From NCBI GenBank assembly GCA_947446575.1, contig CANFHC010000014.1:1-64000 (forward strand): a stretch of 64,000 nt of DNA. Direction: 5' to 3'. Under the pieces are notes generated by a model, which was not told where the DNA came from, made no database searches, and saw only the letters and a program-made list of their open reading frames with translations. Made by a program: the position numbers and the translations under genes. Source of the DNA: Bacteriovoracaceae bacterium (GTDB lineage Bacteria > Bdellovibrionota > Bacteriovoracia > Bacteriovoracales > Bacteriovoracaceae). Shown one piece after another: positions 8,748-46,654 of this stretch (within the stretch, counting starts at the first letter, position 1; each line of letters starts with the position of its first letter).

Positions 8748-8764
8748 ACCAACCTCAGTAAATA

Positions 8765-9489: not shown

Positions 9490-12400
9490 TTATTTATAGA
9501 GATTAAGGAGGAAAGAATCGAGATTGGAATTAAAGCTCACAAAATCTTGATTTTTCTCTTTAAGAATTAGAGATGCTGTGAAGCTAAATCTCATGTCTTT
9601 CGATAAGTTATCCAAAAATCTCTTCGCAACATTGGCCCTAGGGGTTTTTCCATTTGCTATTTCTTCAATTAGCATCAATTTTCTAAAAGTCGTTAATCCA
9701 TCTCTTGCTAATAAGAATCGTATAGTAGGATGAATGCTTCCATCAACTGATGGGTAAAATGTCACAACATCAGACTCGCGCCCATCAAAATCGAGATAAG
9801 GATAATTATTAAATCCAATGCTATTCCATTCTAGATAATGATCTAACCCCTCTTTACGGGCCATGTATAATCCAGGTCCCATAAGAAATCTTGGATCGTC
9901 AAGTGCGCCTTGAGCACCGTTATACATCCCCCACTTCTTTTTATGGGATTTTATATTATCGATATTATTTTTAAAAAGATTAGAAAAGAATCCGTAATCA
10001 AAAAGTGAATTTAATTTATCTAAGGAATTATTATTTTCTTTAAAAGAGCCGAATCCACCAAGAGACATAGAGGGAAAATATTTTTTTAATTTATTTCCAA
10101 AGGCTAAATCAGTTTCTACTTTGTCTGAATATCCAGATGCCTCATCACTAAAGAAATAAACAACTTCAGAATAAGGTTTTAGCAATTTACCCAACTGTAA
10201 AAAATAGTCTTCTTCGGTCATACCTGGAGGAATTGACTTAATAAGCGCGTCTGGAAATTGACCTCCGTAACTAAAAAATGGACCAGTTAGATTATAATAC
10301 TTTGCCAAATTTAAAATCTCATCTAACTCTGATGTTTCAAGCTGAATTTTTCCGCTGGCAATTTTAAGTTGTACTTCTGGAAGTCCACTAAAAGTCGTAA
10401 ATCCGGCCTTAACTATTTCTTGAAGGACTAAATTCCGATTTTTCCTACGTAATTCTTTGTAACCTGCTCCGCTATAATAGGAATACGGTAGACTATCTAG
10501 TCCCATAAAACCCACAGGAAACTTAACTTTTGGAAGCTCATAAGGAAGAATTTCAATTGTTACTGGAAAAATGACTTTTTGATCGTGAATTGAAGCTTCT
10601 ATGTCTAAATGATAAATCCCTGCTGTTAGCTCATGAGCATTCTCAACTTGAGTCCAAAGATATTTGGATTCATTTTTTTCTAAAAGTACTTGATTTTGAG
10701 CAATTGGGTAAAGAAATTTCCCACCTAAGAAATATGTTTCATGATTCAATCCAGGCGAAACATATTGATTCATGACTTCTTGAATTGTAAAGACTGACTT
10801 TTTTATAACTTCATTTTTGCTATTTTTCAAATCTCCAATTTTAAGATTAAGAGTGCTTGAGTATAGCAAGGGATTAACTTGAAGAAGTAATGAACTCACT
10901 TCATTTCTACCTAACTGAAAATGAAGTTTATTGGAGAGAATTTTTTTTATCTCTCCAACAGGAAGTTTAGCGTCTGAATCAACAACATTAATCTCTAGCT
11001 TATTAGTAGGTGAAATTTTCTTTTTATCGGACAGTGCTCTAGAGAACCAACTAAACTCTAATTTGTTTCGAGCATCAAAACTTTTTTGAAATTCTATACC
11101 TATTTTATTATCTTTAAGATTCCAAAAAAGAAGTGTATTTAAAGAAATAGCTGATGGATCTCCTGAAAATTCGAATTCAATTACCCCATTTATAACTGTA
11201 ACCACTTTTTCAATAGGCTTAAATATTTTCGCATAATAAAGGTCATATGGGTTATCACTTTTAGTAGCTCGTACCGTTTCGAAGCGAAGTAAATCTGCTA
11301 AAAATTCACGTCCAGAATTTCTAGTTTCTTTATAAATTGGATGCCCATTAACAAAAACAGTGCGATCTTTATAAAAGGGAACGTCCCAAAACCCCAGTTG
11401 ATCTAAGATCAAGCTAATTTGATACTTTCCATTTGGCACATTGACTTTGAATTTCCCTCCGAGTAATCCGATAGTATAGCGTAAATTTTCACTAGCATAT
11501 TTTGAATCTTCAACGCGCCAAAATTTTGGATTAACAAATCCATACCCTCTTTGTTTATTGTATATTGTTTGAGTTGTTACAAAATTAAAATTCGTAGGAA
11601 TTGATTTTTCAGAAGTAAAATCAAATGCCCAAACAGATTTAGGCACTTGAGTAACTGCTGACTGAACTAAGTCAACATTATCAATAAAGAATGATTTATT
11701 AGAATATTTACTTTCGTTTTCATTACCCACAATCATAAAAATTCGTGTTATTTTTTTGAGATCAAGTCTTCTGTAGACTTTGACAGACCCACGTTCTCCC
11801 ACGTATTGATTTAACGAAAGACTTAAATGATTCCAACCTGGACCTAATGATTCATTATGATTTAGCTGAGACCAGTAATTTGTAGTTTGCTCATCCGCTA
11901 AAGTGAAATTAAAAGAGATGGTGTCTTCGAAAGGATTAAATACATCAAATTCAATTCTATCAAAGGTGGACCAATCTTTATTTTTTACATCATCTAAAGA
12001 AAAATTTAAGTATTTATGTGCCATGAAAGTACCAATCCCATTATTTTTTACATCTTTGGTAACTTTAAATGGATGACCAGATTCAACACTATCAAAATGG
12101 AATAAATGAACCCTCTGAGCTTGTTTGGGAGAAACTTTCTTTTTTTCAGGAAAGTCGGTTTTTGCTATTGCCGGAGGAGGGGAAATCAATACACTGGATG
12201 ATTTTTTTACCATCGGTGTTATTTCAAATGAACTAACTATAATTTTTCCTGGTGATTTAAGACGATACCAAATAGTCATTTCTGTATTTTTAACTGCTAC
12301 AGAAAATTCAATCTCTCTTTTGCCAAAATTACCGTACAGATCAGTGAAAACCATTTTTGTTCCAAAACCTGCATCGTAAAAATTCCAGAAAGAATAACCA

Positions 12401-12675
12401 TCAACTCCTTTTTGAACATCTAAGGCAGCAACTTTGCTTTTTATTTTATAATATCCAGGTTTCAAATCATGGAAGGTAATATAAGCCGTCTCAGACTCTC
12501 CAAAGTCAGTACTCAAAAAAAAAGGACGGAAAGCATCTTTTGGTTGTGAATTATCATTTAAAAATTGCCCAACCCCCTCTCCATAAAAACTAAATGAATT
12601 AGCGAATGTTTTTGAGATAATCAAAAAATAAAAAGATAAGAAAATATAAGAGCAAATAGTTAGATTATTTTTCAA
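9490..12675 (-). CDS. Secreted multidomain glycoside hydrolase-like protein (GH123/DUF4091-like)
   Basis: 1061 aa with an N-terminal signal segment (about 1-26). Residues 30-155 and 190-340 look like beta-sandwich carbohydrate-binding domains, the second CBM11-like. Residues 365-505 resemble a malectin/CBM35-type module. Residues 700-1010 resemble the GH123/DUF4091 barrel, with the adjacent Asp844-Glu845 in FFSDEASG at the place of the catalytic pair and a RFLLARDGLTTFRKL segment near the end. This suggests an exported enzyme acting on amino-sugar polysaccharide (inference). It starts with TTG, which overlaps the NRPS stop (TTGA), so translation is coupled to the NRPS. A polysaccharide-cleaving or sensing role next to an exopolysaccharide locus is plausible. 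Confidence 0.65.
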   Translation of the reverse strand: MKNNLTICSYIFLSFYFLIISKTFANSFSFYGEGVGQFLNDNSQPKDAFRPFFLSTDFGESETAYITFHDLKPGYYKIKSKVAALDVQKGVDGYSFWNFYDAGFGTKMVFTDLYGNFGKREIEFSVAVKNTEMTIWYRLKSPGKIIVSSFEITPMVKKSSSVLISPPPAIAKTDFPEKKKVSPKQAQRVHLFHFDSVESGHPFKVTKDVKNNGIGTFMAHKYLNFSLDDVKNKDWSTFDRIEFDVFNPFEDTISFNFTLADEQTTNYWSQLNHNESLGPGWNHLSLSLNQYVGERGSVKVYRRLDLKKITRIFMIVGNENESKYSNKSFFIDNVDLVQSAVTQVPKSVWAFDFTSEKSIPTNFNFVTTQTIYNKQRGYGFVNPKFWRVEDSKYASENLRYTIGLLGGKFKVNVPNGKYQISLILDQLGFWDVPFYKDRTVFVNGHPIYKETRNSGREFLADLLRFETVRATKSDNPYDLYYAKIFKPIEKVVTVINGVIEFEFSGDPSAISLNTLLFWNLKDNKIGIEFQKSFDARNKLEFSWFSRALSDKKKISPTNKLEINVVDSDAKLPVGEIKKILSNKLHFQLGRNEVSSLLLQVNPLLYSSTLNLKIGDLKNSKNEVIKKSVFTIQEVMNQYVSPGLNHETYFLGGKFLYPIAQNQVLLEKNESKYLWTQVENAHELTAGIYHLDIEASIHDQKVIFPVTIEILPYELPKVKFPVGFMGLDSLPYSYYSGAGYKELRRKNRNLVLQEIVKAGFTTFSGLPEVQLKIASGKIQLETSELDEILNLAKYYNLTGPFFSYGGQFPDALIKSIPPGMTEEDYFLQLGKLLKPYSEVVYFFSDEASGYSDKVETDLAFGNKLKKYFPSMSLGGFGSFKENNNSLDKLNSLFDYGFFSNLFKNNIDNIKSHKKKWGMYNGAQGALDDPRFLMGPGLYMARKEGLDHYLEWNSIGFNNYPYLDFDGRESDVVTFYPSVDGSIHPTIRFLLARDGLTTFRKLMLIEEIANGKTPRANVAKRFLDNLSKDMRFSFTASLILKEKNQDFVSFNSNLDSFLLNLYK

Positions 12676-15600
12676 ACTATTTTCCCTAAAACCTTTACCA
12701 ACTCAGGGCTTTCAATAAAGGCATCATGCGTACTATTGATTTCGAAAATTTTTATATTCCCATCTATAATGTCTGACCAGCCCATGTGAGGATCAGAATA
12801 CCAACCAGTCTCAATTATTTTAGATCTTATAAGATAAATATCTCCCTCGAATTTTTTGGGATTATAATTCCAAATAGCTTTATAATTTTGCTGTTCGATA
12901 TCGTAAAGAAGCACGGAAAGCGGTATCTTTAAACCAAAATTGCGATAGAGCTTTACTAAAATAAAATTAATTTTTGATTTAAATCTATTTTTAAGCCCTT
13001 TTAGTATTCTCTTGTGAAAAGGTTGTCTACTTTGCTTCTTGTAAGATTTTAAATCAAAATTTGGACCAAAAGTATCAAACATAATTATTTTTTCAACTCC
13101 ATCACCGTTTTCAATAATTCTTCTAGCAACTTCAAGTGCGATTAATCCCCCCATAGAGCCACCTGCAAGTAAATAGGGCCCTTCTGGTTGAGCAAGTTTT
13201 AATTCTCGATAATAGAATAACGCCATCTCTTCAATTGAACGTAGAGGTAAACTTTCACCATCTAACCCTACTGATTGAAAGGCAAGTAGCGGACGTTCTG
13301 ATTTCATTGCCGGAACAATCGAAACATAATTTAAGATATTACCGCCTACTGCATGAAAACAGTAGAAGGGATTTTTTGAACCCTTATTACTAATTGCCAC
13401 AAGGGATTTAAACACTTGATCTGCAGACGGTATTAAATTAATCGATGCCAACTGTCGTAATGATGGATTTATTTTTTCATTTACTGCTTGGTAAAAACTA
13501 TCCAAATCATGAGCTTCGATTAACAATGATAATTGAAGTGTTATATTAAATTCCTGAGCAAGCTTCGAATAAAATTCAACTGCTAATAAAGAATTTCCTC
13601 CGATATCAAAAAAATTATCACTATCACTGACTTGATCAACTCTCAAAAGGTCTTTTATAATTTGATAAAGTCGTCTTTTGGTTTGTGATATTGGGGATTG
13701 CGTCGTTTCCGATTTTTTTATTTTAGCAGTCTTTTCTTGGGCAAATATATCTGGAAGTGATAATTTATCAATTTTCCCATTTAAAGTTTTAGGAATATTG
13801 TTTAAATGAACAAAATTCGAAGGAACCATATAAGCAGAAAGATTTTTTGAAAGTTTTGCTCTCATATCTTTTTCTTCTATCAAGTTAGCATCAATACTTG
13901 AGTAATAGGCAACTAACCTTTGATCGCCTGCTTTTGATTCAAGAATTTTCACAGCAGACTCGTTTATTCCACTAATTTTTTGAAGCTGAGATTCAATCTC
14001 TCCAAGTTCAATTCTAAATCCACGTAATTTTACTTGCCCATCATTTCGTCCTAAACAGATCAATTCACCTTGAGCATTAAAGCGTGCGAAATCGCCGGTC
14101 GCATAGATGATCTCATTTGAGTTCAGTGGATTTTTGATAAAACGCTCTGAAGTTAAATCAGATCTATTCAAATATCCAAGGGCAACTCCTTTTCCACCAA
14201 TAAACAATTGCCCTTTAACCCCAATAGGTGTTCGATTTAAATGTTCATCTAGAATGTAAATTGTCGTATTGCCAATTGGAGTTCCAATTGTAATTGATTG
14301 ATCTTTGTGAGTCAGTTTCTTCATTGTTGACCAAACGGTTGTTTCAGTTGGTCCATACATATTCCAAACATCTAAGCACAATGGAAGAAGCTTGTGCATT
14401 AAATCCCGTGGAAATGGTTCTCCTCCACATAATGCTTTAAAATATTGGTGGCCACGAAAACCAGCTGCCAAAAGCAATCTCCATGTTGTAGGAGTTGCTT
14501 GCATTAAAGTAATATTCTGAGTCTGTATTATATTATTTAAAGCTGATCCATCAACGAGTTCTTTAGAATTTGCAATATAAACACTGGCACCGGTCATTAG
14601 AGGTAAAAAAAGCTCTAAGACGGATATATCAAAGCTTAAAGTTGTCACTGCAAGGAGCCTATCACTCAGAGAGCATAAAGTTTTATTTTTCATTGATTGC
14701 AAAAAATTACTTAAAGCTAATTGGGGAATCGAGACACCTTTAGGAAGACCTGTACTACCTGAAGTATAAATGACATATGCAATTGATTCCGGCGAGAAAT
14801 CTTTGGAAAACTGTAACTCGTCTTTTGGATGCGAGAGCATTTCATTAATATCAAACAGATTCTGAACTTTATTAAATCGATTAAAATTATTATTTTCTAG
14901 AACTAGAAAGTTAATTTTTGAATTTTCAATCATATAATTCAATCGCTCATCAGGAAAACTAGGATCGAGTGGAACATAGCCTGCTCCACATTTAAAAATA
15001 CCCAAAATGGATGGTAATAAATTAAGATCGCGGTTCAATGAAACACCAACCAAGTCACCGCCCTTTACTCCTAATTGTTTTAATGAATTCGCAACTTTAT
15101 TGGAAAGTTTATCAAGCTGATTATAACTCAGAGATCCTGCTTCCGTAATAACAGCAACGTTATTCGGAAATAGCCTTGCATTATCTTTAAAGATTTCTAC
15201 GAAAACTCTTTCATCTAATTCAAGATCTGTTTGATTCCATTGTTTTAACAGGTTTTTGTGTTTAGATGGAAGAAGAGGTGCATTGTTCAAGTTTATATTA
15301 GCTGAAGTGGATAAACTTTCTAAAATGAAAATAAAAGACTCTAAGAATCGCTCAACCGTAATATCCAAAAATAAATCTTTTCTAAATTCAAAGGCTCCTT
15401 CAATTTTGCTTCCACTGGTCTTGATCCATAAATCTAAATCGGTATGAGTAGATGATTTATCAACATTAATTTGACTGTAGTGATTTTCTCCTAAGTGTGC
15501 CCTACGATTGTTGACATCTTGATAAGAAAAAAATGTTTGAAATATGGGGGTACGGGTTCTGTCTTTAGTAGAACTGACTTTATTCAAAACTATTTGGAAT

Positions 15601-18296
15601 GGAATTATTTGATTTTCAAATGCTTCTAAACAAGTAGTCGCCACTTGATTTAAATTATAAATAAAGGATTGATCATGATCAATAACTGTTCTTAAAGCGA
15701 CTGTGTTTACAAAATAGCCGATAGTGTTCATTACTTCAGGATGTACCCTACCTCTTACTGGAGCTCCAACGATGATATCATCTTTGTTCCCATCTTCTTT
15801 GGAGTAACGAGAGAGAGTAATCTTAAATGCTGTTAAAAAAACATTAAATAAAGAAGTGCCATTTGCTCTTGCAAATAGTCTTATTTCATCAAGCAAATGT
15901 TCATTCAAAGTAAAAGGAATTGTACCACCAACATGTGACATCTCTGCTGGTCGAGAAAAATCCAAAGGCAATTCCAAAAAAGGAAGAGGACAATGCAATT
16001 TTTGTTTCCAATACTCAAGCTCATGATCGAGTTTCTTTTCTTCAATTTGCTTTTTTAGCCACGAAGTATAATCTAAATAACTAATCCCTGGTTTAGAAAA
16101 TTGAGGATAAGTGTTTGAAGAAAATGCCGAATAAGCTAAGTTCAATTCTTCAAAGAATATATCAAAGCTCCAGCCATCCCAAATTGCGTGATGAAAAAGA
16201 AAAAAGAGAACGTAGTCCTCTTCACTAAGTTTATAGACTGTTGCCTTAAAAAGTGGTGATGTACTTTTATTAAAAACAAGCGCTGCATCTGAATTTAAGA
16301 TTTTAACGATCGATTCTTCATTTGCTTCTATGATATTAAGTTTTATCTTTTCATTCTTATCTACGTTGTCTACTTTTTGGTATGGCACTCCGTTTTCTAC
16401 TTGAAAATAAGTTCGAAATGCTTCATGTCGATTTTTTAAGACATTCAAGGCTAATTCAAGAGAATGAATATCAATTTTTGCTCTAAATCTTAAAGCCGCA
16501 GGCAAATTATGCATCGTCGTTGATGGAAACATTTCTTCTAAGTACCAAATTTGCATTTGAGAATTACTGACTTTTTCTGAAATTAGGTTTTGTATTTCTA
16601 TTGGCGAAAATGTACTTGTTTTACTAATCGACTTATTTATCTCCGAAACCTTTTGTGCCATTAGAATAATATTTGGATTTTCAAAAACATCTTTCATGCT
16701 AAAAGGTTTAGAAAAATCTTTTTCTATTTTACTCGCTAATTCAAGAGCCAAAAGAGAATGCCCTCCGATGGAAAAAAAGTTATCAGTTTCGGTTATATTG
16801 TCGTTAAGAAGAATCTCAGACCATATTTTACTGACGAGCCTTTCTGTTTCAAAATTGCGTGAAAGAAATGAATCTACTTTTTCAGATGTTTCAGGGATTT
16901 TAATATCTATCGGTAAATGAATATATAGATCAGTCATTGATGAAATTATTGTATTTGGATTTTCACAAAAGATGCCAAGGAGTTCTAGATATGAATTAAA
17001 CCAACTAAGAATCGTATTTTTACGAAATGCCCCTTCATTGAATTGACATTCTAAAACCAAAGAATCTTGGCAAGAAGCTGCATTGATAAACATATCAAAA
17101 TTTTCATATTCACGAGGGATCGTATTATAATAAGCATCTAGATTTTGAAATCTCAACCCCTGGTCTGGTGCTTGTTGATCAATATTAAAAACAATATTCA
17201 ATAGTGGCAATTCCCCCGGAATTCTTTTAATATTTTGCAGGTCTTTGACTAAAGTTCCATAAGTATAGAACTGATGATCAAAGGCATCCAGCATCTTAGA
17301 TCTAACAACAGTTAAGTAATCTTTAATGGATTTATGGGATTCTATCTGAGCCCTCAATGGTAATAAATTTACCATGTGCCCAACTAATTCATTTTGATCA
17401 ATCGCCGGTTGAGTAGCAGAAGATACCCCCAAAACAACATCATTATTTTTAGTTAATTTGCTTATAAATATATTAAAAACAGCAATAAGGGATCCATATA
17501 GAGAAGATCCATTTTGAGCACTAACTTTTTTTAACTTCGCAACGAGTGATTCCGGTATGACAACGTCTACTCTTTTACTTTTAAAGGTTCTAAAGTTTCC
17601 TCTTGGATAGTCTGTAGGAAATCGAGTCCCTGCAAGGGGCATTTTGAATTCATTTAACCAATAGGCCCGGTGATCTCTATTGATTCCATCTTGTAGTAAA
17701 TTAATTGAGAATTCAGAAAATTGCAGAGGAATGCCTAAATTTACTGAAGTTCCATTGATTTCTTTATTATAGAAAAAACCTAGATCGTGAAACAAAATCG
17801 AATAAGACCAGCCATCACAAATAATGTGGTGAGTGCTTAAAATAAAAATAAATTCTGAATCCGATTTTTTAATTAACGTTGAACGAACCAATGGACCAAA
17901 CTCTAAATCATACTTGGCTGTTACTTCTTTTTTCTTTATAGCTTCGTAATCAAAAGAGTAAGAATTGGATTGGCTTAAATCTATAAATGCAATATCTGCT
18001 TGCGAATATTCTTTTACAAATACTTTCTTTCCATCATTGCTAAATACAGATCTTAAAGCATCATGACGACCTATCAACTTCCCAAAAGCTATATTTAATG
18101 CTGAATAATCAACATGCCCTTTAAAATTTATTTCAATCGATTCGTTATAGCAAAGAGTAGCGTCACTATCCATTTTAAGAGTTGACCATATTTCTTTTTG
18201 TGCTTCAGTAGCAGGCACAACCAAATCAATTGCTCCTAATCTAAAAGGATCATAATTAAAAACTCGTTTTAAATGGGCGTTGCCTTTATTGTCCAT
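12672..18296 (-). CDS. Non-ribosomal peptide synthetase, C-T-C-A-T-TE
   Basis: 1874 aa. Domains: condensation C1 (25-455, HHIICDG at 156), carrier T1 (485-550, Ser514 in IGGHSLL), condensation C2 (575-1000, HHAIWDG at 702), adenylation (1030-1515, YTSGSTGLPKG and MYGPTETT), carrier T2 (1540-1605, Ser1569 in IGGNSLL) and type I thioesterase (1640-1874; Ser1714 in GGSMGG, Asp1741, His1857). The specificity residues read D-I-L-Q-L-G-M-V-W, a glycine-type code. T1 has no adenylation domain of its own. The gene starts 3 nt after the PKS stop with no separate ribosome-binding site, and its stop overlaps the next gene. It should accept the beta-amino acyl chain from the upstream hybrid protein and release the product by hydrolysis or cyclisation. 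Confidence 0.95.
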   Translation of the reverse strand: MDNKGNAHLKRVFNYDPFRLGAIDLVVPATEAQKEIWSTLKMDSDATLCYNESIEINFKGHVDYSALNIAFGKLIGRHDALRSVFSNDGKKVFVKEYSQADIAFIDLSQSNSYSFDYEAIKKKEVTAKYDLEFGPLVRSTLIKKSDSEFIFILSTHHIICDGWSYSILFHDLGFFYNKEINGTSVNLGIPLQFSEFSINLLQDGINRDHRAYWLNEFKMPLAGTRFPTDYPRGNFRTFKSKRVDVVIPESLVAKLKKVSAQNGSSLYGSLIAVFNIFISKLTKNNDVVLGVSSATQPAIDQNELVGHMVNLLPLRAQIESHKSIKDYLTVVRSKMLDAFDHQFYTYGTLVKDLQNIKRIPGELPLLNIVFNIDQQAPDQGLRFQNLDAYYNTIPREYENFDMFINAASCQDSLVLECQFNEGAFRKNTILSWFNSYLELLGIFCENPNTIISSMTDLYIHLPIDIKIPETSEKVDSFLSRNFETERLVSKIWSEILLNDNITETDNFFSIGGHSLLALELASKIEKDFSKPFSMKDVFENPNIILMAQKVSEINKSISKTSTFSPIEIQNLISEKVSNSQMQIWYLEEMFPSTTMHNLPAALRFRAKIDIHSLELALNVLKNRHEAFRTYFQVENGVPYQKVDNVDKNEKIKLNIIEANEESIVKILNSDAALVFNKSTSPLFKATVYKLSEEDYVLFFLFHHAIWDGWSFDIFFEELNLAYSAFSSNTYPQFSKPGISYLDYTSWLKKQIEEKKLDHELEYWKQKLHCPLPFLELPLDFSRPAEMSHVGGTIPFTLNEHLLDEIRLFARANGTSLFNVFLTAFKITLSRYSKEDGNKDDIIVGAPVRGRVHPEVMNTIGYFVNTVALRTVIDHDQSFIYNLNQVATTCLEAFENQIIPFQIVLNKVSSTKDRTRTPIFQTFFSYQDVNNRRAHLGENHYSQINVDKSSTHTDLDLWIKTSGSKIEGAFEFRKDLFLDITVERFLESFIFILESLSTSANINLNNAPLLPSKHKNLLKQWNQTDLELDERVFVEIFKDNARLFPNNVAVITEAGSLSYNQLDKLSNKVANSLKQLGVKGGDLVGVSLNRDLNLLPSILGIFKCGAGYVPLDPSFPDERLNYMIENSKINFLVLENNNFNRFNKVQNLFDINEMLSHPKDELQFSKDFSPESIAYVIYTSGSTGLPKGVSIPQLALSNFLQSMKNKTLCSLSDRLLAVTTLSFDISVLELFLPLMTGASVYIANSKELVDGSALNNIIQTQNITLMQATPTTWRLLLAAGFRGHQYFKALCGGEPFPRDLMHKLLPLCLDVWNMYGPTETTVWSTMKKLTHKDQSITIGTPIGNTTIYILDEHLNRTPIGVKGQLFIGGKGVALGYLNRSDLTSERFIKNPLNSNEIIYATGDFARFNAQGELICLGRNDGQVKLRGFRIELGEIESQLQKISGINESAVKILESKAGDQRLVAYYSSIDANLIEEKDMRAKLSKNLSAYMVPSNFVHLNNIPKTLNGKIDKLSLPDIFAQEKTAKIKKSETTQSPISQTKRRLYQIIKDLLRVDQVSDSDNFFDIGGNSLLAVEFYSKLAQEFNITLQLSLLIEAHDLDSFYQAVNEKINPSLRQLASINLIPSADQVFKSLVAISNKGSKNPFYCFHAVGGNILNYVSIVPAMKSERPLLAFQSVGLDGESLPLRSIEEMALFYYRELKLAQPEGPYLLAGGSMGGLIALEVARRIIENGDGVEKIIMFDTFGPNFDLKSYKKQSRQPFHKRILKGLKNRFKSKINFILVKLYRNFGLKIPLSVLLYDIEQQNYKAIWNYNPKKFEGDIYLIRSKIIETGWYSDPHMGWSDIIDGNIKIFEINSTHDAFIESPELVKVLGKIV

Positions 18297-18299
18297 TAT

Positions 18300-21200
18300 T
18301 TATTTTGCCTTAATTTGAAAATATTGACCGGGATTATTTTCATCTTCTATGAACCAAGCTGGATTGCCATTTTCATCTTTTCCAATTCTCGCTTGAGTCA
18401 TTGGAGGACCCTTTTTATTTAAAATCTCTGCATTGATGTCAAAATCAATTGTAGAGACTCGTTTAAATATTCCAATCTCTTCCATCATTTGTACTGATTT
18501 TTTAAAAGAAGATATTACTTGCTCTAAATCTTCTTTTGTATGAGCTAAGTTTACAAACCAAGGAAAACCATCATAAACGTGAATTCCGTTATACCTTAAG
18601 GCTGCAAAAAAGAGATCTCCACTAGGAAGATCTTCTTTCCATTTGGGCTTCATTAAAGATCCGAAATTATCTACCTTTAACGGAATATTATGAGTTGATA
18701 AAATCCCATTGATTTCATCAACAAAATCTTGCGCTCTAATATTTAAATCTTGCAATAATGGTATTCCGCCTTCTTTAAGAATCTCCAGCGCTCCAAGAGC
18801 AGCTGCTAGAGCAAGAGGATGACGAACAAAAGTACCAGCAAAATAGGTTACACCAACAGAAGGAGTTGAATTATCTCCATATTGCCAATGACCACCATCT
18901 AAAGCATCCATATATTCAGTCTTTCCAGATATCACTCCAATTGGCATTCCCCCACCAAGAATTTTTCCATAAGTACAAAGATCAGCTCTAATATCAAAAT
19001 AGCCTTGAGCACCAGCAGGGTGAACTCTAAAACCAGTAATGATCTCATCAAATATTAAACAAGTCTCTGACTCCGACGTGATCCGTCTTACTTCTTTTAA
19101 AAATTCTTTAGGATGAAAATCACTACGACGGCTTTGAACGGGTTCAACTAAAACTGCGGCTACAGTAATCGCGTGCTCTCTGATAAATTCTAGTGACTCA
19201 TCAGTCCCATAATCTAGTACAATCATGTTAGTTACTGACTCGTTATTTATTCCTGGGGCAGCTGGATAGGAAGTCATATTTTTTGATCCACGCAAAATAA
19301 CTTCGTCGTTAATCCCGTGATATGAACCACTAAAGACTATAATTTTTTCCCTTCCTGTTACTGTACGTGCAATTCTCATGGCCCCAAGTACTGCTTCTGA
19401 TCCAGTATTGCAAAATGCCGTTCTTTCATTTCCAGTTAGCTCATTAATTAATTTACTCACTTCACTCACAAGAGGGTGTTGCGGACCTAGCTCAAAACCT
19501 TCTTCAATTTGTTTTTGGACATACTTTTTTATACGCTCATTACCATTACCAAAAAAATTAGATCCAAATCCACACGTCATATCGATGTAGCGATTATTAT
19601 CAATATCCCATAAGGTTTGAAGATAAGATTTTTTAACAACTATCGGGTAAACGAACTCTTTGCTCTCTGGTTTAAATCCTGTCACAACCCTAGGATCGGC
19701 ATGATTTTTTCGATTATCTTGAGCGAACTTTTTTGAGCCCTTCGTTTTGTCGTTATAATTTTTTTGGAAATCATTTATTCTCTTTTGCGTCTCTTCATCA
19801 ACCTTCATAGTTTTCTCAAGAATAATTTTTGCTTGTGCACCAAATGTTTCTTTAGATTTTTTAATATCTATACCACTTATAGGCGTTTTAACATTGGGCA
19901 GTGCTTGAATTCTGCTGGTTTCACTTGATAAAATACTTGATGAGGATGGCGCTCCAGATAACAGCGCTAACTGATTGGCCATTATCTCTAATTGTTTTTT
20001 AATAATGTCATCTAGCTGAGTTGACGGAGTCTGACTTTGAAAATCTGCTTTTTGCAGAGACATAGGTTTAGAAGATGCAGATTGAATAAATTCTATTTTT
20101 TGAATAGGTCTATCTTCTGCTAATTTGCGAGATACAATAGGAGTATTCAAAGGCATTTCAATTGCCTTAGTTTCTGTAGGCAAAAGCGCTTCAAGATGTA
20201 TTGCAAGCTTTTCTATTGAGGAATAATTTTCCAAGAGCTGTCTAAAAGTAATATTAACTTTCATGTCCTTTTTTAACTTTATCGAGACTTGAGTTAAAAA
20301 CAATGAGTCCATACCCATTTCTAAAAATGAAGTTGTTTTATCAAAACTTCCAACATCAATACCAGAGGCACTTTCAAATATTTTTATTAATCGCGCTTCT
20401 AAATTAATTAAGTCAGAATTACTCATAATTGCATCCTTTATCCTATTACTGACTAACCAATGATGATTTTTTTCAAAAATATATGTAGGAGCCTTTACCC
20501 GCACTCTAGCTTCTTCTGGATACATATCAAATTCGTGTTCACTATTGATTCCCAATATCCAAAGAGCTCCCAACGCCTTCTTGAATGAATATTCTTCTAA
20601 AATAAAATCATTAGAGAGCAGCGTTAAAACTTTTGAAATATTTTTTAAATTAATTAATTCTTTCTTAATTAAATTAGCAGTTGTATTGTTCGTCCCAACT
20701 TCTAAGTAAACACAGGCTGTTATTTCTCTTTGAAGTGATTCAATCGCGCTCACAAAATTAACGGTTGCGCGTATATGATTGGCCCAATATTCTGGAGTTA
20801 ATAAACTTGCAGCAGTTGCTTTATTTACTGATGAAATTATTTTGATTTTTGGTTCTTGAAAATTTATTGTCTTCAAGACATCTAGATACTCTTCAATAAT
20901 TGGGTCCATCATTCTGGAATGGAACGCATGTGATGTTTTTAATTCGATTGAAGCTATTGCTTGATCTTCTAAGTATTTTTTATACCTTGCTAATTCATCG
21001 ACATTACCTGAAACAACAACCGATTTTTGTCCGTTGACTGCTGCAATATCTAACGAGAAATTAAGCAGATGTTTTTCAACTTCAAAAATATTGCTAGAGA
21101 CAGAGAGCATCTTTCCTTTTGGCAGTCGGCTAATTAATTCGGCCCTTTTAGTAATGGCCATAGCCGCTTCTTCAAGAGTAAACACACCTGCAATCGTGGC

Positions 21201-24200
21201 CGCTGCAAACTCTCCAATACTATGCCCGATTAAAGCCGTTGGCATATACCCCAAAGTCATCAACATTTTTGCCAAAGAATACTCGAGTGCAAAAATCGCC
21301 GGCTGAGAATAATAAGTATTGGCTAGAAGTTCATCTGAATTATCAGAAAAAATGATTTCTTTTAAATCATAGGGCAAAAAATTATTTATGGTTTGAGTAG
21401 TTAAATCAAAAATTGATCTAAAAATTAGATTTGTATCATAAAGACCAAGCCCCATTTTACCATATTGCGAACCTTGACCTGGAAATGTAAAAATTAAATT
21501 TTCAAAAAGTGTCTTATTGTCAGAATTTTTTTCTTCGACAAAATATTTTTGAGCAAAAATTAGTTCATCTTTATTCTTAATAACCAGTGCCGCTTTGTAC
21601 TTAAAAGGCTTCCGGCCAACGTCTAGAGTAAATGCAATTTTTTCAAATTGAGTAGATTCAGATTTAGATAAAAAATGCACAAGATTTTCTTTCATTAACG
21701 AAAGCTGTTTTTCGGTTTTAGCTGAAACTTTAAAAATCTTATAAACATCAATATTTTCGAATGATTCTATTTCATCATTCTTAAATTCTTCCAAAATAAG
21801 GTGAGCATTAGTTCCTCCTACTCCAAAAGAAGAGACTGCTGCTCTTCGATTCTCAGCGGATTCTCTTTTTTTAAATTCTAAGTTTTCATTGGTTACAATA
21901 AAAGGTGTTTCATTAAAATTAATCAGTGGATTTGCGATTTTAAAATGCGCTGTCCCTGGAATAATTCCTTTGTTTAAAATAAGCACCGTTTTAATAAAAC
22001 TAGTAACACCTGAAGCTGCCGTCAAATGACCAAGATTCGATTTTACTGAACTTAATACACAATAATTATTTTTTAATGTTCTTAATTTAAATGCTTTTGT
22101 GAGTGCATCTACTTCAATTGGATCTCCAATTGGAGTGGCAGTACCATGAGCTTCAACAAACCCAATGGTCTCGGGGTGAATCCCCCCATCTATTTGAGCT
22201 TTGATTATTGCATCCATTTGTCCATCAACCGATGGAGCAGTAAAGCTCATTTTATTGGCCCCATCGTTATTGAGTCCAACTCCTTTAACAATTGCAAGTA
22301 TAGTGTCTTGGTCTTTTATCGCATCTTCTAAACGCTTTAATACAACTACTCCGGCACCATCTGAAAAAACCGTTCCAGATGCCTCCGAATCAAATGGACG
22401 GCAAGCTCCATCACTTGATAGAATCCCACCTTCGATAAAAAGATGCCCAGTTTTTGGCGCACCTGAAATCGAGATGCCACCAGCTAAGGCCATATCACAA
22501 CTTCGACTTCGCAATTTTAAACACGCCTCAATGATTGCAACTAAAGATGTTGAACACCCTGTATGAATAGAAAGTGCTGGTCCTTTTAAATTTAATTTAT
22601 AAGCAATTCTCGTTGCAATATAATCTTTTTCTAAACCAAGCATGACATTGAACTCACCCAAATCCTGAATTTTATCTGGATGTTCATCAACGAGCTTTGA
22701 ATATTTTGAGTTCCCCATTCCCGCAAAAATACCAATACTATGCTCAGTATTTTCTGGATTGTATCCTGCGAGCTCGAGTGCTTCATAACAAATTTCTAAA
22801 AACTTTCTTTGCTGAGGGTCCATTAATTCTGCTTCACGAGGAGTCATGCCAAAAAACTTGTGATCAAACGTTGCTTGTTCAGGAAACTCTCCTTCAAAGA
22901 ACACATAGTTTGAATCATTTTTAGCTTCTTTTAAAACATATGAATTTACATTCTCTTTATGAAAAGAAGTTAATTCATTTTTTCGTTGGACTAAATTTTC
23001 CCATAATTCATCAATTGAACTAGCTCCTGGAAATCGGCCGGTCATTCCAATAACTGCAATATCATGAGAGTCATTTGCATTTAGTTTTCTGGAAAAATCA
23101 TACTGTTTTTTAGCAGATTGATTCTTCAACTCTAAGTTTTGGCATAATGTTTTTATTGTTGGGTATTGAAAAATTTCAGCAATTGAAATTGGTTGCTGTA
23201 ACTCTTGATTGAGTTCAACTAAGATTTTTATGGCCATTAAGGACGTTCCCCCTAGGTCAAAAAAATTATCTTCAATTCCAATTTTATCTATAATCAAAAA
23301 CTTTTTCCAAAATTTATGAAGAGTTTTTTCTAGATCTGACTGTGGAGCAACGTATTCATTAGCAAGCTCAGGACGAGCACTACTTGGAGCTGGAAGATTT
23401 TTATAATCCACTTTGCCTGATGGTGTTAATGGAAAATCAGCGATATTTATAAATAATCCAGGAATCATATAATCTGGAAGTATCGCTTTTAAGCTAGATC
23501 TTAATTTTTTAAAATCAACTTCTTCAGTCTTTTTAAAATAAGCACAAAGATATGCTTCCCGCTCATTTGATTTAATGGCTTTTACGACTGAAGCCTTTCC
23601 TTTTAATAATTTTTGAATGGCCACTTCAATTTCACCAATTTCAATTCGATACCCACGAATTTTAACCTGAGTATCGATACGACCAAGGCATTCTATATTT
23701 CCTTCAGTGCAAATCCTTACTAGATCACCTGTTTTATAAATGCGACCGAGCTTAAAGTGCTCGATAAATCGCTCTTTGGTTAAATCTTCCGCATGTAAAT
23801 ATCCTAAAGCCAGGGCCGCTCCTTTTATATAGAGCTCTCCTTCATCGTGAATTTTTGTAGGTTTTAACTCTTTGTCTAAAATATGACATTCAACATTGGT
23901 AATAGCGCGCCCAATGCTTGGTAAATCAGGAAACGATTTAGGATCTCCTTCCAATTTTAAACTGGTCACTACGTGGGTTTCAGTCGGTCCATAATGATTG
24001 AATAGTTTTATTTTATCTAAATGACATAAAAAACTTCTAATTGCAGGGGTAATTTTTAATTGTTCACCAGCTGTTGTAATTTCTTTTAATGATTTGGGAA
24101 TTAATTTAAATTTTACGGCAACTTCTGCAAGATGATTCAAGGCCACATACGGTAGATAGAGTCTATTAACTTTTTTATCAATAATTAAATTTAATAATTT

Positions 24201-24869
24201 AATCGTATCAAGTCGCTCATCTTCAGACAGGAGTACTAATTTTCCTCCCAGAGTTAGGGTAGAGAAAATTTCTTGAAAATGCACATCAAAACTAATCGGT
24301 GTAAATTGCAAAGTGATGGACTCTGCTGCTAGCGATGTTTCTTTATTTTGCCATTCAATTAAATTGACGAGTGCCGATTGGGCCATAGCTACCCCTTTAG
24401 GAGTACCCGTCGATCCACTGGTATAAATAACATAGCCGAGTTTTGAATTGGTACAATCAATACTCGGATTTTTATGACTAAATTTTCTTAAATCAAGAGA
24501 CTCAAAAATTGTGAGTTTGTCTTGATGATCACAATTAAAAATTGATTTGATTGAATCCTCAATCAGAACGATTTTTGTTTTAGATTGAGTGAGCATAAAA
24601 TTTAATCGCGATGAAGGATACTCTGGATCTAGAGGTAAATAACCTGCTCCCGCTTTTAAAATTCCTAATATCACAGCAATTAAATTTTCAGATCTTTTAA
24701 AACAAACTCCGACGATATCGCCAGGTTTCACTCCGCTACCAACAAGAAAATGAGCTATTTGATTGGCCTTTATATTTAATTGCTCATACGTGAGAACGCG
24801 ATCATTCATCACAAGAGCAACTCTTGCTGAATATTTCAAAACACTTTGATTAAAGAGATTGATTAACAA
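18300..24869 (-). CDS. Hybrid NRPS-PKS-aminotransferase, A-T-KS-AT-ACP-AMT
   Basis: 2189 aa. Domains: adenylation (10-490; YTSGSTGTPKG, NHYGPTET), carrier T (512-575; Ser544), ketosynthase (601-1028; Cys772, His908, His948), acyltransferase (1125-1410; Ser1217 in GHSIG, HAFH at 1314 indicating malonyl-CoA), ACP (1486-1560; Ser1522), a disordered linker, and a class III PLP aminotransferase (about 1700-2125; Asp1941, Lys1969). The C-terminal ARIGKDENGNPAWFI stretch resembles the tail after aminotransferase domains of iturin/mycosubtilin-type enzymes. The A-domain code reads D-V-Q-Y-T-A-H-V-V, close to proline codes. No ketoreductase is present, so the beta-keto group is free for transamination. 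The start is TTG, supported by GGAG 8-9 nt upstream. Confidence 0.95.
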   Translation of the reverse strand: MLINLFNQSVLKYSARVALVMNDRVLTYEQLNIKANQIAHFLVGSGVKPGDIVGVCFKRSENLIAVILGILKAGAGYLPLDPEYPSSRLNFMLTQSKTKIVLIEDSIKSIFNCDHQDKLTIFESLDLRKFSHKNPSIDCTNSKLGYVIYTSGSTGTPKGVAMAQSALVNLIEWQNKETSLAAESITLQFTPISFDVHFQEIFSTLTLGGKLVLLSEDERLDTIKLLNLIIDKKVNRLYLPYVALNHLAEVAVKFKLIPKSLKEITTAGEQLKITPAIRSFLCHLDKIKLFNHYGPTETHVVTSLKLEGDPKSFPDLPSIGRAITNVECHILDKELKPTKIHDEGELYIKGAALALGYLHAEDLTKERFIEHFKLGRIYKTGDLVRICTEGNIECLGRIDTQVKIRGYRIEIGEIEVAIQKLLKGKASVVKAIKSNEREAYLCAYFKKTEEVDFKKLRSSLKAILPDYMIPGLFINIADFPLTPSGKVDYKNLPAPSSARPELANEYVAPQSDLEKTLHKFWKKFLIIDKIGIEDNFFDLGGTSLMAIKILVELNQELQQPISIAEIFQYPTIKTLCQNLELKNQSAKKQYDFSRKLNANDSHDIAVIGMTGRFPGASSIDELWENLVQRKNELTSFHKENVNSYVLKEAKNDSNYVFFEGEFPEQATFDHKFFGMTPREAELMDPQQRKFLEICYEALELAGYNPENTEHSIGIFAGMGNSKYSKLVDEHPDKIQDLGEFNVMLGLEKDYIATRIAYKLNLKGPALSIHTGCSTSLVAIIEACLKLRSRSCDMALAGGISISGAPKTGHLFIEGGILSSDGACRPFDSEASGTVFSDGAGVVVLKRLEDAIKDQDTILAIVKGVGLNNDGANKMSFTAPSVDGQMDAIIKAQIDGGIHPETIGFVEAHGTATPIGDPIEVDALTKAFKLRTLKNNYCVLSSVKSNLGHLTAASGVTSFIKTVLILNKGIIPGTAHFKIANPLINFNETPFIVTNENLEFKKRESAENRRAAVSSFGVGGTNAHLILEEFKNDEIESFENIDVYKIFKVSAKTEKQLSLMKENLVHFLSKSESTQFEKIAFTLDVGRKPFKYKAALVIKNKDELIFAQKYFVEEKNSDNKTLFENLIFTFPGQGSQYGKMGLGLYDTNLIFRSIFDLTTQTINNFLPYDLKEIIFSDNSDELLANTYYSQPAIFALEYSLAKMLMTLGYMPTALIGHSIGEFAAATIAGVFTLEEAAMAITKRAELISRLPKGKMLSVSSNIFEVEKHLLNFSLDIAAVNGQKSVVVSGNVDELARYKKYLEDQAIASIELKTSHAFHSRMMDPIIEEYLDVLKTINFQEPKIKIISSVNKATAASLLTPEYWANHIRATVNFVSAIESLQREITACVYLEVGTNNTTANLIKKELINLKNISKVLTLLSNDFILEEYSFKKALGALWILGINSEHEFDMYPEEARVRVKAPTYIFEKNHHWLVSNRIKDAIMSNSDLINLEARLIKIFESASGIDVGSFDKTTSFLEMGMDSLFLTQVSIKLKKDMKVNITFRQLLENYSSIEKLAIHLEALLPTETKAIEMPLNTPIVSRKLAEDRPIQKIEFIQSASSKPMSLQKADFQSQTPSTQLDDIIKKQLEIMANQLALLSGAPSSSSILSSETSRIQALPNVKTPISGIDIKKSKETFGAQAKIILEKTMKVDEETQKRINDFQKNYNDKTKGSKKFAQDNRKNHADPRVVTGFKPESKEFVYPIVVKKSYLQTLWDIDNNRYIDMTCGFGSNFFGNGNERIKKYVQKQIEEGFELGPQHPLVSEVSKLINELTGNERTAFCNTGSEAVLGAMRIARTVTGREKIIVFSGSYHGINDEVILRGSKNMTSYPAAPGINNESVTNMIVLDYGTDESLEFIREHAITVAAVLVEPVQSRRSDFHPKEFLKEVRRITSESETCLIFDEIITGFRVHPAGAQGYFDIRADLCTYGKILGGGMPIGVISGKTEYMDALDGGHWQYGDNSTPSVGVTYFAGTFVRHPLALAAALGALEILKEGGIPLLQDLNIRAQDFVDEINGILSTHNIPLKVDNFGSLMKPKWKEDLPSGDLFFAALRYNGIHVYDGFPWFVNLAHTKEDLEQVISSFKKSVQMMEEIGIFKRVSTIDFDINAEILNKKGPPMTQARIGKDENGNPAWFIEDENNPGQYFQIKAK

Positions 24870-25040: not shown

Positions 25041-25721
25041 TTAAACAATCTCAAGAATGGTTAAAAGAGACCCCTCAAAGAGGGCAAAGCGACCTTCAAA
25101 AGAATTGCGGTTTTGGGGACCAAATTCACTATTTAATGATTTTGTAAGAAAGATTTTAAAAGTTTGATTTTTAAAATCTATTTCCGAAACATAGGCATAA
25201 TCAAAGCCGAAAAATTTTTTTACTTCTGGGTACAGCGCTTTGTACAAGCTTTCTTTAGCGGAAAATATAAAAGTGAGAAGTTCCTCTGCACTAAAATGAG
25301 TATGTTCTTTTAAATCATTTGCAGTCAGTATATGCCTAGCAAGCTCTATCTTTGTTCGCCCTAATAATTCAATATCTAAACCTAAGCATCGCACTTTTGT
25401 TTTATCAGCAATGGCGGCACAAACATATTCATTGCTATGAGAAATAGACCCAATTAAATCAGGTGGCCAATTAGGGGTACGGTCGTCGTTTGAATTGAGA
25501 GAGAGTAATTCGGTCCCATTAAAAATTTGAACTGCTTTGTAGGCACAATAACGACCAAGAAGGTATTCATTTTTTCTTTTTGGATGATACTTTTCGGTTG
25601 ATGGAGAAATAAGGAGCTTTGAAATAATCGATTGAATTTCAGGACTCACAAATTCATCTCTTTTAACTATGAAAAAAGTTGAATTTGTAAAGTATTGAGT
25701 GAGTTCTGAAATATTATTCAT
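25041..25721 (-). CDS. Sfp/EntD-type 4'-phosphopantetheinyl transferase
   Basis: 226 aa. It shows the family motifs in order: a KRKNEYLLGRYCAYKA region, GSISHSNEYV, the magnesium-binding CLGLDIELLG, and FSAKESLYKALYPEVKKFFGF. It transfers the phosphopantetheine arm from coenzyme A to carrier domains, so it is the natural activator of the four carrier domains encoded just downstream. Length and motifs fit the EntD subgroup. It begins 5 nt after the Wza-like exporter stop, so the two share a transcript. A 171-nt gap then separates it from the hybrid synthase. Confidence 0.93.
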   Translation of the reverse strand: MNNISELTQYFTNSTFFIVKRDEFVSPEIQSIISKLLISPSTEKYHPKRKNEYLLGRYCAYKAVQIFNGTELLSLNSNDDRTPNWPPDLIGSISHSNEYVCAAIADKTKVRCLGLDIELLGRTKIELARHILTANDLKEHTHFSAEELLTFIFSAKESLYKALYPEVKKFFGFDYAYVSEIDFKNQTFKIFLTKSLNSEFGPQNRNSFEGRFALFEGSLLTILEIV

Positions 25722-25726
25722 ATTTT

Positions 25727-26749
25727 TTAAAGAGCAATTATAGCTAAGGCAATACTAGAAAAAATTCCTGCAATATGTCCTAGTCGCTCTAGCCAAATAT
25801 CTGATTCCTTTCTCACCTGTGTGTTCATATAAATTGTATCATTTGGCATAATCGCTGGAATCGTTTCAGGCTGATCAAAAGCGAATTCGATTTTCTTCAC
25901 TCCCTCTTTAGTATTTCTAAAAACAAAACATTCTGTATACCCTAGGGCCGAAATTGTTCCGCCAGATTTTTCAATAAAATAATAAAGACTGGCATTTTTT
26001 TGATAAAGGACTTTCCCTGGTTTTATCACTCCACCGATGATCGTAACAAAAGGAATCTCTTGCGTTTTTCCTGCTAAACTATCGAGCTTAGAAATAAATA
26101 GACTGTCTCCACCAAGCCATCTAATTTTATCAGCTGCGGAATTTGATTCGAAATATTTATTCAAAAGAACTTTATATTCATAGGTTTGTTGTTTTAAACC
26201 AGCAGTAAAATAATCTACCGACACATCACCTTGCACTCCACCAGCAGCATCAACAACAAGATCTAATGTGTCAGACTGTTTTACAAGATAGCGACCAGGT
26301 TTTTTAACTAAACCTCGCACCTCTACCCAATATTCTTTTTTTGCGATGGTGAAGTTAACCCCATCAACACCTTTTTGGAAAAATTTTCGATAAGACTTTA
26401 AAACTTGTTCTTTAACTTCAGCAAATGTCTTGTCAGTAATATTGATATTAACATCGTATGGTAATTGCAAATTTCCGTTAAAATCTGATCTAAAAATACC
26501 ACTTAAACGGCTATCGCTTGGATGAGAAATTTGAAAAGAAAATCCCGGTGCTACATAATTTGGAATTTTTGAGAGGTCAGGAATTTCTTTGTCTATACCT
26601 GAATCAGTTTCACTTTTATTTTTACTTTCAGCTTCCATACTTTGCTTAATTTGATCTGTATATTTAGGATAATCCTTTAATGAATGATTGGTGGAACAAC
26701 CTGATAAAAATATCAAAGCAATTAACGAAAAAAATCTTAAATTATTCAC
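25727..26749 (-). CDS. Wza-like outer-membrane polysaccharide export lipoprotein
   Basis: 340 aa. The lipoprotein signal LIALIFLSGCSTN has a lipobox cysteine. A poly-export domain (about 65-155) is followed by SLBB-type beta-grasp domains (EVRGLVKKPGRYLV, then TIIGGVIKPGKVLY). A C-terminal hydrophobic helix (LERLGHIAGIFSSIALAIIAL) matches the outer-membrane-spanning helix of Wza. It should form the outer-membrane exit pore for the polysaccharide made by the neighbouring Wzx/Wzy genes. It is the first gene of the leftward operon that continues into the PPTase and NRPS-PKS genes and is divergent from the glycosyltransferase at 26846. Confidence 0.9.
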   Translation of the reverse strand: MNNLRFFSLIALIFLSGCSTNHSLKDYPKYTDQIKQSMEAESKNKSETDSGIDKEIPDLSKIPNYVAPGFSFQISHPSDSRLSGIFRSDFNGNLQLPYDVNINITDKTFAEVKEQVLKSYRKFFQKGVDGVNFTIAKKEYWVEVRGLVKKPGRYLVKQSDTLDLVVDAAGGVQGDVSVDYFTAGLKQQTYEYKVLLNKYFESNSAADKIRWLGGDSLFISKLDSLAGKTQEIPFVTIIGGVIKPGKVLYQKNASLYYFIEKSGGTISALGYTECFVFRNTKEGVKKIEFAFDQPETIPAIMPNDTIYMNTQVRKESDIWLERLGHIAGIFSSIALAIIAL

Positions 26750-26845: not shown

Positions 26846-27949
26846 ATGAAGATCATGCACGTCACACAATTTTTGGGTATCGGTGGTTTAGAAAAAATTA
26901 TCTACCATATCATTCTGGAGCAAATGTCGCAAGGCCATGAGGTTTCTCTTTATGTTTATGATCACGACCAAGAATGGGTGTCATTTTTTAAAAAAAGTGG
27001 TATAAATGTCATTACTCCCCCAATGAAAAAGCCTGGATACGATTTTCATTTAATTCCAACAATGAATAAAGATCTCTGCAGTGCAGATGTCATCCACACT
27101 CATGATTTAAATCCTCTTATGTATCTTTTTCCAATTTTCTTTTTCAAGAAGTGCTTTTTGATTAACCATCCCCGTTTAGTTCACACAACTCATGGTCTTG
27201 GTCATGTTGAGCGATTCCCTCGTTATCGAATTTTCGAAAAATACATTGTTCCAATAGCTGACAAAATCATTGGAGTAAGTGAGAAAATTGGGAACTTCTA
27301 CAAAGAAGACCTCAAAATAAATCCACGGAAAATTAAAGTTATCGATAATGGAATTGCTATATATAAAGGGGTGATTAATCCTGAAGTTAGACGCCAGCAA
27401 AAAATTTGGTTATGTAACCGTCATAAAATGGACCCAAACCGTCCACTAATCCTTTCACTTTCGCGAATACTTCCATTAAAGGATCAACGCTTTTTAATCG
27501 AGGCGATAAAAAAACGCCCCGACTATCAACTCATTGTCGTTGGGCCTCCAAGTGATCAAGCTTATTATGATCTTTTAAAAGAAAAAGAAGATTCAAATAT
27601 TGTTCTCGTTGGTTCACAAGAACTAGTAAGTGAATATAACCTAGGAGCAGATCTTTATGTAAGTGCATCTACTCACGAGGGAATTCCAGTCGCTGTCCTA
27701 GAGGCCATGGCCGTAGAGACACCTTGTGTTGTGAGCGGAATACCAGGACATATGACTCTCAATCAATTTGGCAATTATGTCGCAGTATTTCCTCTCAATG
27801 ATCAAAATAAATTTTTAGAACTTTGTGATTTGCTCTTAACGGAGAAAGAAAATGCACAATCAATTGCTCAAAAAGCTCGTGGCATTGTCGTTGCTCATTA
27901 CAGCGTAAAAAAAATGGTAGACCTATACATGAAGGAATACAGTAAATGA
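26846..27949 (+). CDS. Glycosyltransferase family 4 (GT-B)
   Basis: 367 aa. The N-terminal VTQFLGIGGLEKII glycine-rich loop and the C-terminal LSRILPLKDQRFLIEAI and EGIPVAVLEAM (EX7E motif) are typical of GT4 retaining glycosyltransferases that add sugars from nucleotide donors on the cytoplasmic face. It is the first gene of a three-gene rightward run and overlaps the flippase by 4 nt (ATGA). Sugar specificity cannot be read from the sequence. It should act in building the exopolysaccharide repeat unit. Confidence 0.9.
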   Translation: MKIMHVTQFLGIGGLEKIIYHIILEQMSQGHEVSLYVYDHDQEWVSFFKKSGINVITPPMKKPGYDFHLIPTMNKDLCSADVIHTHDLNPLMYLFPIFFFKKCFLINHPRLVHTTHGLGHVERFPRYRIFEKYIVPIADKIIGVSEKIGNFYKEDLKINPRKIKVIDNGIAIYKGVINPEVRRQQKIWLCNRHKMDPNRPLILSLSRILPLKDQRFLIEAIKKRPDYQLIVVGPPSDQAYYDLLKEKEDSNIVLVGSQELVSEYNLGADLYVSASTHEGIPVAVLEAMAVETPCVVSGIPGHMTLNQFGNYVAVFPLNDQNKFLELCDLLLTEKENAQSIAQKARGIVVAHYSVKKMVDLYMKEYSK

Positions 27950-37370: not shown

Positions 37371-37388
37371 ATATACCTCTATTTAATT

Positions 37389-38912: not shown

Positions 38913-38931
38913 TTTATACCTCATTTACTCA

Positions 38932-40077: not shown

Positions 40078-40156
40078 ATCGACTCCATTTTTATATATGC
40101 AATGTTATATCACGCCTATATCTAGTTCTTATTCTCAGTTCGCTAGTGTGTAATTT

Positions 40157-45973: not shown

Positions 45974-46654
45974 TTATTGATTTTTGTGGAACGTGAGCAT
46001 TTTTAAGGCAGTGTAATAACAGATCAAGAAATGAAACAGTAATGATTCTTGGCGCTCAATGTAATAAAGATCGTACTCTAATTTTTCGTGAGCTTTCGCA
46101 TCGTAAGGAAGACAAATTTGAGCGAGTCCAGTTATACCCGGTTTTACTAAATTTCTCTGATTATAATCTAAAATTTCTTTTTCAAAAACTTCTACGAATT
46201 CAGGTCTTTCAGGGCGAGGACCAACAAACGACATATCACCTGAGAGAACGTTGAATAATTGAGGAAGCTCATCTAAGTGACTTGCTCTTAAAAATTTTCC
46301 TAAGACAGTTACACGAGGATCGTTTTTAACAGAAAACATTGGACCAGATTTCGCTTCAGCGTCTTCTACCATTGATCTGAATTTATAAACTTTGAAGAGT
46401 TTGCCATTTTTTCCAACTCTTGTTTGAGAGTAAAAAACTTTTCCTCCAGTAGTCACTTTAATTGCTAATGCAATTATTGTCATAATCGATCCAAATAATA
46501 AAAGAAGCGTGATCGCCAAAAGCGTATCAAGAGCAGATAGTGATTTTTCACCAATCGTCACTTTCTTAAAAAGCTTGCTCTCCGTAAAAAAGAACGAAGA
46601 CATGTTAAATTGGGTAATTTTTAATCCATTTGAGCTAGCGGCTAAGTGATTCAT
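45974..46654 (-). CDS. Undecaprenyl-phosphate sugar phosphotransferase (WcaJ/PglC-type)
   Basis: 226 aa. One membrane helix (about 42-66) is followed by the bacterial sugar transferase core: VYKFRSMVEDAEAKSG, DELPQLFNVLSGDMSFVGPRPERPEF and KPGITGLAQ. It catalyses the first membrane step, transferring a sugar-1-phosphate from a UDP-sugar to undecaprenyl phosphate, and so starts the repeat unit for the Wzx/Wzy pathway encoded at 26.8-35.9 kb. It lacks the four extra N-terminal helices of WcaJ, so it is nearer PglC in size. AGGAAG precedes the ATG. It lies 151 nt downstream of galE. Confidence 0.92.
   Translation of the reverse strand: MNHLAASSNGLKITQFNMSSFFFTESKLFKKVTIGEKSLSALDTLLAITLLLLFGSIMTIIALAIKVTTGGKVFYSQTRVGKNGKLFKVYKFRSMVEDAEAKSGPMFSVKNDPRVTVLGKFLRASHLDELPQLFNVLSGDMSFVGPRPERPEFVEVFEKEILDYNQRNLVKPGITGLAQICLPYDAKAHEKLEYDLYYIERQESLLFHFLICYYTALKMLTFHKNQ

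Follow-up and report, generated by a model that had tools for sequence, protein, structure and literature searches.

Two adjacent genes in the first 64 kb of a contig from a Bacteriovoracaceae bacterium, which has a marine predator among its relatives (this whole stretch, with a GC content of ~35%, is referred to here as the window) encode an NRPS-PKS assembly line, which raises the question of what the line makes and what its product serves. A preliminary description framed the pair as a compact, stand-alone peptide cluster. That frame is not the best one, because the pair lies in a conserved exopolysaccharide (EPS) locus, a setting that had been missed, because its NRPS half very probably contributes a Gly-Gly unit, and because full-length homologues occur in other phyla. 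With a probability of roughly 0.55, we propose from the sequence that the line is a working part of the EPS locus and makes a short diamino peptide, most likely as a substituent of the polysaccharide.

Domain organization and predicted substrates of the synthase

Protein 1 matches the Pfam families AMP-binding, PP-binding (twice), ketoacyl-synt (N- and C-terminal parts), Acyl_transf_1 and Aminotran_3, and protein 2 matches Condensation (twice), PP-binding (twice), AMP-binding and Thioesterase. Domain alignment confirmed order and boundaries in both proteins, giving A-T-KS-AT-ACP-AMT and C-T-C-A-T-TE on the minus strand as first described (Table 1). The stop codon of protein 1 is separated from the start of protein 2 by a few bases, and the two condensation domains of protein 2 are the only ones in the whole 3.39 Mb genome. 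The core catalytic residues reported earlier are borne out by a motif check: the KS carries GCSTSL, EAHGTAT and KSNLGH, the AT carries GHSIGE and the malonyl signature HAFH, the three T domains carry GGxSL and the ACP GMDSL, the AMT carries TYGKILGGG with its PLP lysine intact, the condensation domains carry HHIICDG and HHAIWDG, and the TE carries GGSMGG with a C-terminal THD. No ketoreductase was matched in either protein by Pfam or motif check, also in keeping with the earlier account.

Table 1. Features of the synthase pair and of the surrounding genes in the window.
Feature	Coordinates	Strand	Basis
GH123-like, probably exported hydrolase; start overlaps protein 2 end	9490..12675	-	Profile search
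Synthase protein 2 (1874 aa), C-T-C-A-T-TE	12672..18296	-	ORF list, Pfam, motifs
Thioesterase domain	12675..13391	-	Pfam, motifs
A2 adenylation domain, predicted glycine	13737..15206	-	Pocket alignment
C1-T2 module without A domain	16617..18236	-	Pfam, domain alignment
Synthase protein 1 (2189 aa), A-T-KS-AT-ACP-AMT	18300..24869	-	ORF list, Pfam, motifs
AMT, class III PLP aminotransferase; closest solved structure mycosubtilin MycA AMT (6kfm)	18450..19799	-	Pfam, structure-database match, motif
ACP	20130..20384	-	Domain alignment, motif
AT domain, malonyl type	20430..21509	-	Pfam, motifs
KS domain	21780..23063	-	Pfam, motifs
A1 adenylation domain, predicted proline	23370..24869	-	Pocket alignment; best pocket matches TycB1, GrsB1
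4'-Phosphopantetheinyl transferase (PPTase)	25041..25721	-	Pfam; adjoins synthase in most relatives
SLBB / Wza-like polysaccharide export protein	25727..26749	-	Homology
GT4 glycosyltransferase	26846..27949	+	Homology
Wzx-type flippase	27946..29385	+	Homology
GT4 glycosyltransferase	29375..30499	+	Homology
Wzy-type polymerase / O-antigen ligase family	32608..34035	-	Homology
Wzz-like (GNVR) chain-length protein	34056..35282	-	Weak Pfam match; conserved by position
M28 aminopeptidase (LapA-like)	43394..44656	+	Homology
Initiating sugar-phosphate transferase (EPS_sugtrans family)	45974..46654	-	Homology

Adenylation codes were read by alignment to GrsA, using as anchor a GrsA sequence whose numbering was confirmed at D235 and K517. 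The A1 code, DVQYTAHVVK, fits the proline pattern DVQ(L/F/Y)xAHVV, and the pocket segment has only two matches below 1e-20 in the PDB, TycB1 and GrsB1, both of them proline-activating domains. A1 is thus an amino-acid-type adenylation domain and not a fatty-acid-loading (FAAL) domain placed before the KS. It is improbable, in our judgement, that A1 loads another substrate or that the line is inactive, so that the product is no proline-derived compound. The codes are predictions; seven of nine pocket residues equal those of aligned TycB1, with position 299 being Thr here and Ile there, and some relatives carry the starter codes DPLFNGQIVK, DPMSNAQVVK or DFWNIGGIFK. Against this, the catalytic motifs are intact and the starter code is of the proline type in 17 of 22 relatives.

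The A2 code, DILQLGMVWK, fits the glycine pattern DILQLG(L/M)(I/V)WK, and its best pocket match in the PDB is 5u89 (aligned pocket DILQLGLIW), followed by 4zxh; these are the glycine modules of DhbF and AB3403. Though their adenylation pockets resemble those of the window, DhbF, AB3403, TycB1 and GrsB1 belong to siderophore, cyclic-peptide or other pathways, unlike the line described here. The code DILQLGM(V/I)WK is found in 24 of 25 A2 domains of the Bdellovibrionota. The first C-T module of protein 2 has no A domain, an absence conserved across the family. In a relative from another family (G358) the order is C-A-T-C-A-T and both A domains, included in the 24, read DILQLGMVWK, while in two further genomes (G333 and G040) it is C-A-T-C-T. 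Since the relative with two A domains has the same code in both, the A-less C1-T2 module is probably also loaded with glycine, and most simply one A domain for glycine would serve both carriers, giving X-Gly-Gly. Two genomes of the window's family also hold separate small NRPSs, one a T-C-A-T-TE protein adjoining a Wzx-like gene (G003, L105:3417-7544) and one a T-C-A protein adjoining an SLBB gene (G022, L091:10667-14314); read by eye, their pocket segments have the same glycine-type residues.

These assignments suggest a route in which A1 would load proline onto T1 and KS-AT-ACP would extend the prolyl unit by one malonate. The beta-ketone would be kept, as there is no ketoreductase, and the AMT would turn it into a beta-amine, yielding a beta,gamma-diamino acid, the 3-amino-3-(pyrrolidin-2-yl)propanoyl unit. 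Protein 2 would then add two glycines, with T2 and T3 both charged by its one glycine A domain, before the TE releases the chain; the predicted product is 3-amino-3-(pyrrolidin-2-yl)propanoyl-Gly-Gly, which as the free acid would have the formula C11H20N4O4 and, protonated, an m/z of 273.156. The order of events put forward in the preliminary description, from amino-acid starter through malonyl extension and beta-amination to NRPS transfer and TE release, stands as a prediction supported by the proline code, the HAFH motif and the MycA-type AMT, but it lacked the EPS locus, the Gly-Gly and the homologues in other phyla.

The KS-AT-ACP-AMT logic is shared with the mycosubtilin, iturin and bacillomycin synthases (MycA, BamA); the AMT is 44% identical to that of BamA, and its best PDB match is the MycA AMT. 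Those systems start from a fatty acid, whereas the line here begins with an A-T pair in cis whose code is that for proline. Statine- and dolaproine-type units arise by extension of an amino acid with a malonate-type unit to a gamma-amino acid, in which a ketoreductase gives a beta-hydroxyl; the logic is the same in the window's line, with the difference that a beta-amine, formed by the AMT, is predicted.

Exopolysaccharide genes around the synthase and their co-occurrence in the family

The synthase pair lies inside an EPS locus, with the PPTase and SLBB genes upstream, the GH123-like gene downstream, and genes for Wzx, Wzy, a Wzz-like protein, glycosyltransferases and the initiating sugar transferase around them. 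The GH123-like protein has a profile match to 5fqe (E 1.5e-4) and is itself below the Pfam cut-offs; GH123_cat is matched in 6 of 14 members, and the adjacent Asp-Glu pair D844-E845, of the kind expected in a GH123 catalytic domain, is invariant. Downstream of its gene, at 7884-9466, are a cupin/JmjC-like protein, which recurs in the genus, and a hexapeptide acyltransferase, also found in G007 and G358. The interval 36084-43318, conserved with the EPS locus, encodes a 1053-aa protein without a Pfam match, a 428-aa protein whose start is signal-like, and two TolC-like outer membrane proteins; no partner pump of the inner membrane was recognised. Relatives of the LapA-like M28 aminopeptidase directly adjoin the synthase in Halobacteriovorax MAGs and are found close to it in G040 (L025, L034), and a maturation or self-protection role for this enzyme is possible.

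One identical draw of 125 family genomes was surveyed for both synthase and EPS genes. Homologues of Wzy and of SLBB were found in one and the same set of 23 genomes; 21 genomes have both synthase and EPS locus, one has the synthase only (G093), two have EPS only (G005, G013) and 101 have neither, such that 21 of the 22 synthase-bearing genomes carry the EPS locus. G034, G141 and the FAAL-type G094, G099 and G102 were not counted as this synthase type. The genome-level association (Fisher 1.5e-20) is inflated by shared descent, and that at the level of genera (nine with both, one with the synthase only, none with EPS only and 38 with neither; Fisher 6e-9) is less so. Chance co-occurrence is ruled out by this contingency table, drawn from a single set of genomes.

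Physical linkage, taken as at least two EPS genes within ~18 kb, is found at 19 of 23 family synthase loci, a count that partly reflects shared descent. The order SLBB-PPTase-protein 1-protein 2-GH123-like is found again in genomes that have a protein 1 of 41-59% identity, with the PPTase or GH123-like gene sometimes absent. Co-occurrence extends to genomes in which the two are unlinked (G007, G020, G074). In G007 the EPS locus is 48-81% identical gene by gene and the PPTase gene is followed directly by the GH123-like gene, the synthase being on another contig, and in Halobacteriovorax MAGs the EPS locus lies ~50-85 kb from the synthase. These arrangements suggest that the synthase can move as an accessory and tends to accompany EPS genes. 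It is also found away from them in G040, G195, Spirosoma and Variovorax WDL1, and largely so in G093; as each occurs without the other, neither strictly needs its partner.

Homologues in other phyla and the iturin-type clade

A tblastn search of plasmids returned full-length homologues at 35-41% identity. Those of V. paradoxus, Aliiroseovarius, Rhodobacter, Rhizobium CCGE531, SL42, AB2/73 and jaguaris, Ensifer canadensis and Loktanella are part of EPS clusters that also hold genes for export, sugar transfer, a flippase or a kinase, and a PPTase is encoded nearby; the rhizobial and Loktanella relatives are from cultured strains. The rhizobial, Rhodobacterales and Variovorax lines share with the window the amino-acid-type starter A domain, the KS-AT-ACP-AMT order and the EPS setting, and in most of them a glycine-type A domain and an A-less last module. 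They differ in that their starter codes are not of the proline type, their genes are split differently and the glycine module precedes the A-less one: in rhizobia, Loktanella, Rhodobacter and Variovorax a C-A-T module is followed by an A-less C-T module. The rhizobial and Loktanella lines, whose last module is A-less, have the glycine-type code DILQLGMIWK. Aliiroseovarius departs from this pattern in having only one C-A-T-TE and a different code.

The homologues of Spirosoma and Variovorax WDL1 are not in EPS clusters, and copper-handling genes lie close to them (L107, L108). A product with a vicinal diamine and two glycine amides could bind Cu(II), but we consider a role as a chelator of copper or another metal very unlikely, as neither copper genes nor genes for metal uptake were recognised adjoining the window's synthase and both of these loci are plasmid-borne, a setting in which copper genes occur often.

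In a midpoint-rooted KS+AMT tree, the plasmid homologues group with the window's line. A second clade (clade I, of the FAAL/iturin type) contains BamA, Nostoc, Planktothrix, Burkholderia and seven Bdellovibrionota lines without an A-T pair; the separation of the A-T-starter lines from this clade upholds the distinction drawn earlier between an amino-acid and a fatty-acid starter, and the genomic context differs also. EPS linkage was found at 29 of 36 A-T-starter loci (G333, cut by its contig end, was left out) and at 0 of 10 clade I loci (Fisher 5e-6), where the seven Bdellovibrionota controls, compared with the window's own EPS proteins alone, and Burkholderia were scored by similarity to known EPS proteins of this study, a procedure that unrelated EPS genes could escape. 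This second KS-AT-AMT synthase family occurs in other Bdellovibrionota without EPS genes at L114, L115, L117, L119, L120, L122 and L124. In three lines without a classical TE domain (L034, L073, L078; genomes G040, G333 and G358) the synthase is followed by alpha/beta hydrolases similar to the exosortase-A-associated types 1 and 2; as their scores are below the curated cut-offs and the PEP-CTERM/EpsH paper makes no mention of these hydrolases (PMC1569441), this resemblance is only a lead.

A proposed role for the product

The repeated siting of the synthase in EPS gene sets of several bacterial groups suggests that its product decorates the coat or works with it. The main rival to a polysaccharide substituent is a free small diamino tripeptide, hydrolysed off by the TE and secreted, whether to act as an antibiotic, to signal or to inhibit an enzyme, and merely co-regulated with EPS, for example in biofilm growth or predation. 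This would account for a domain order that makes up a full assembly line of the classical kind with a terminal TE, for the distance between synthase and EPS genes in Halobacteriovorax, G040 and G195, and for the M28 aminopeptidase beside some synthases. We nevertheless regard it as rather unlikely, as no dedicated small-molecule exporter was recognised adjoining the synthase and as distant lineages repeatedly have it linked to genes for Wzx, export and sugar transfer.

If the peptide is instead a substituent, the chain would end, by TE-mediated or separate acyl transfer, as a short cationic group on the polysaccharide that the neighbouring Wzx/Wzy system exports. This attachment is the weakest step of the proposal, because no dedicated peptide-to-sugar transferase was identified and because some EPS loci lack the synthase. 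Extracellular polysaccharides bearing short peptides have a precedent in the sheaths of Sphaerotilus and Leptothrix, where the peptide is Gly-Cys and so differs from the one predicted here.

No description of such a system was found in the literature searched on adenylation codes, on NRPS in Halobacteriovorax and Bdellovibrionota, and on NRPS-PKS lines inside EPS clusters. A 2021 survey notes for Bdellovibrionota only the presence of NRPS, polyketide and saccharide clusters (PMC8067016).

More tentatively, and at somewhat less than even odds, the line may belong to a cross-phylum class of NRPS-PKS systems dedicated to exported polysaccharides, in which a beta-amino acyl-Gly-Gly (with a varying starter and nearly constant Gly-Gly) would be transferred to the sugars ahead of their export by Wzx/Wzy, so that the polysaccharide becomes peptide-decorated and cationic. 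What is new is an assembly line in a class repeatedly sited in polysaccharide loci across phyla, with a real chance that this is a new use of NRPS-PKS enzymes. Beta,gamma-diamino acids are familiar mainly from synthetic chemistry, and the synthase, if the proposal is true, would offer an enzymatic route to them, as well as a genetic handle on peptide-decorated polysaccharides. In Bdellovibrionota, rhizobia, Rhodobacterales and Variovorax, giant natural-product enzymes would then serve the building of the coat and not only the production of secreted metabolites.
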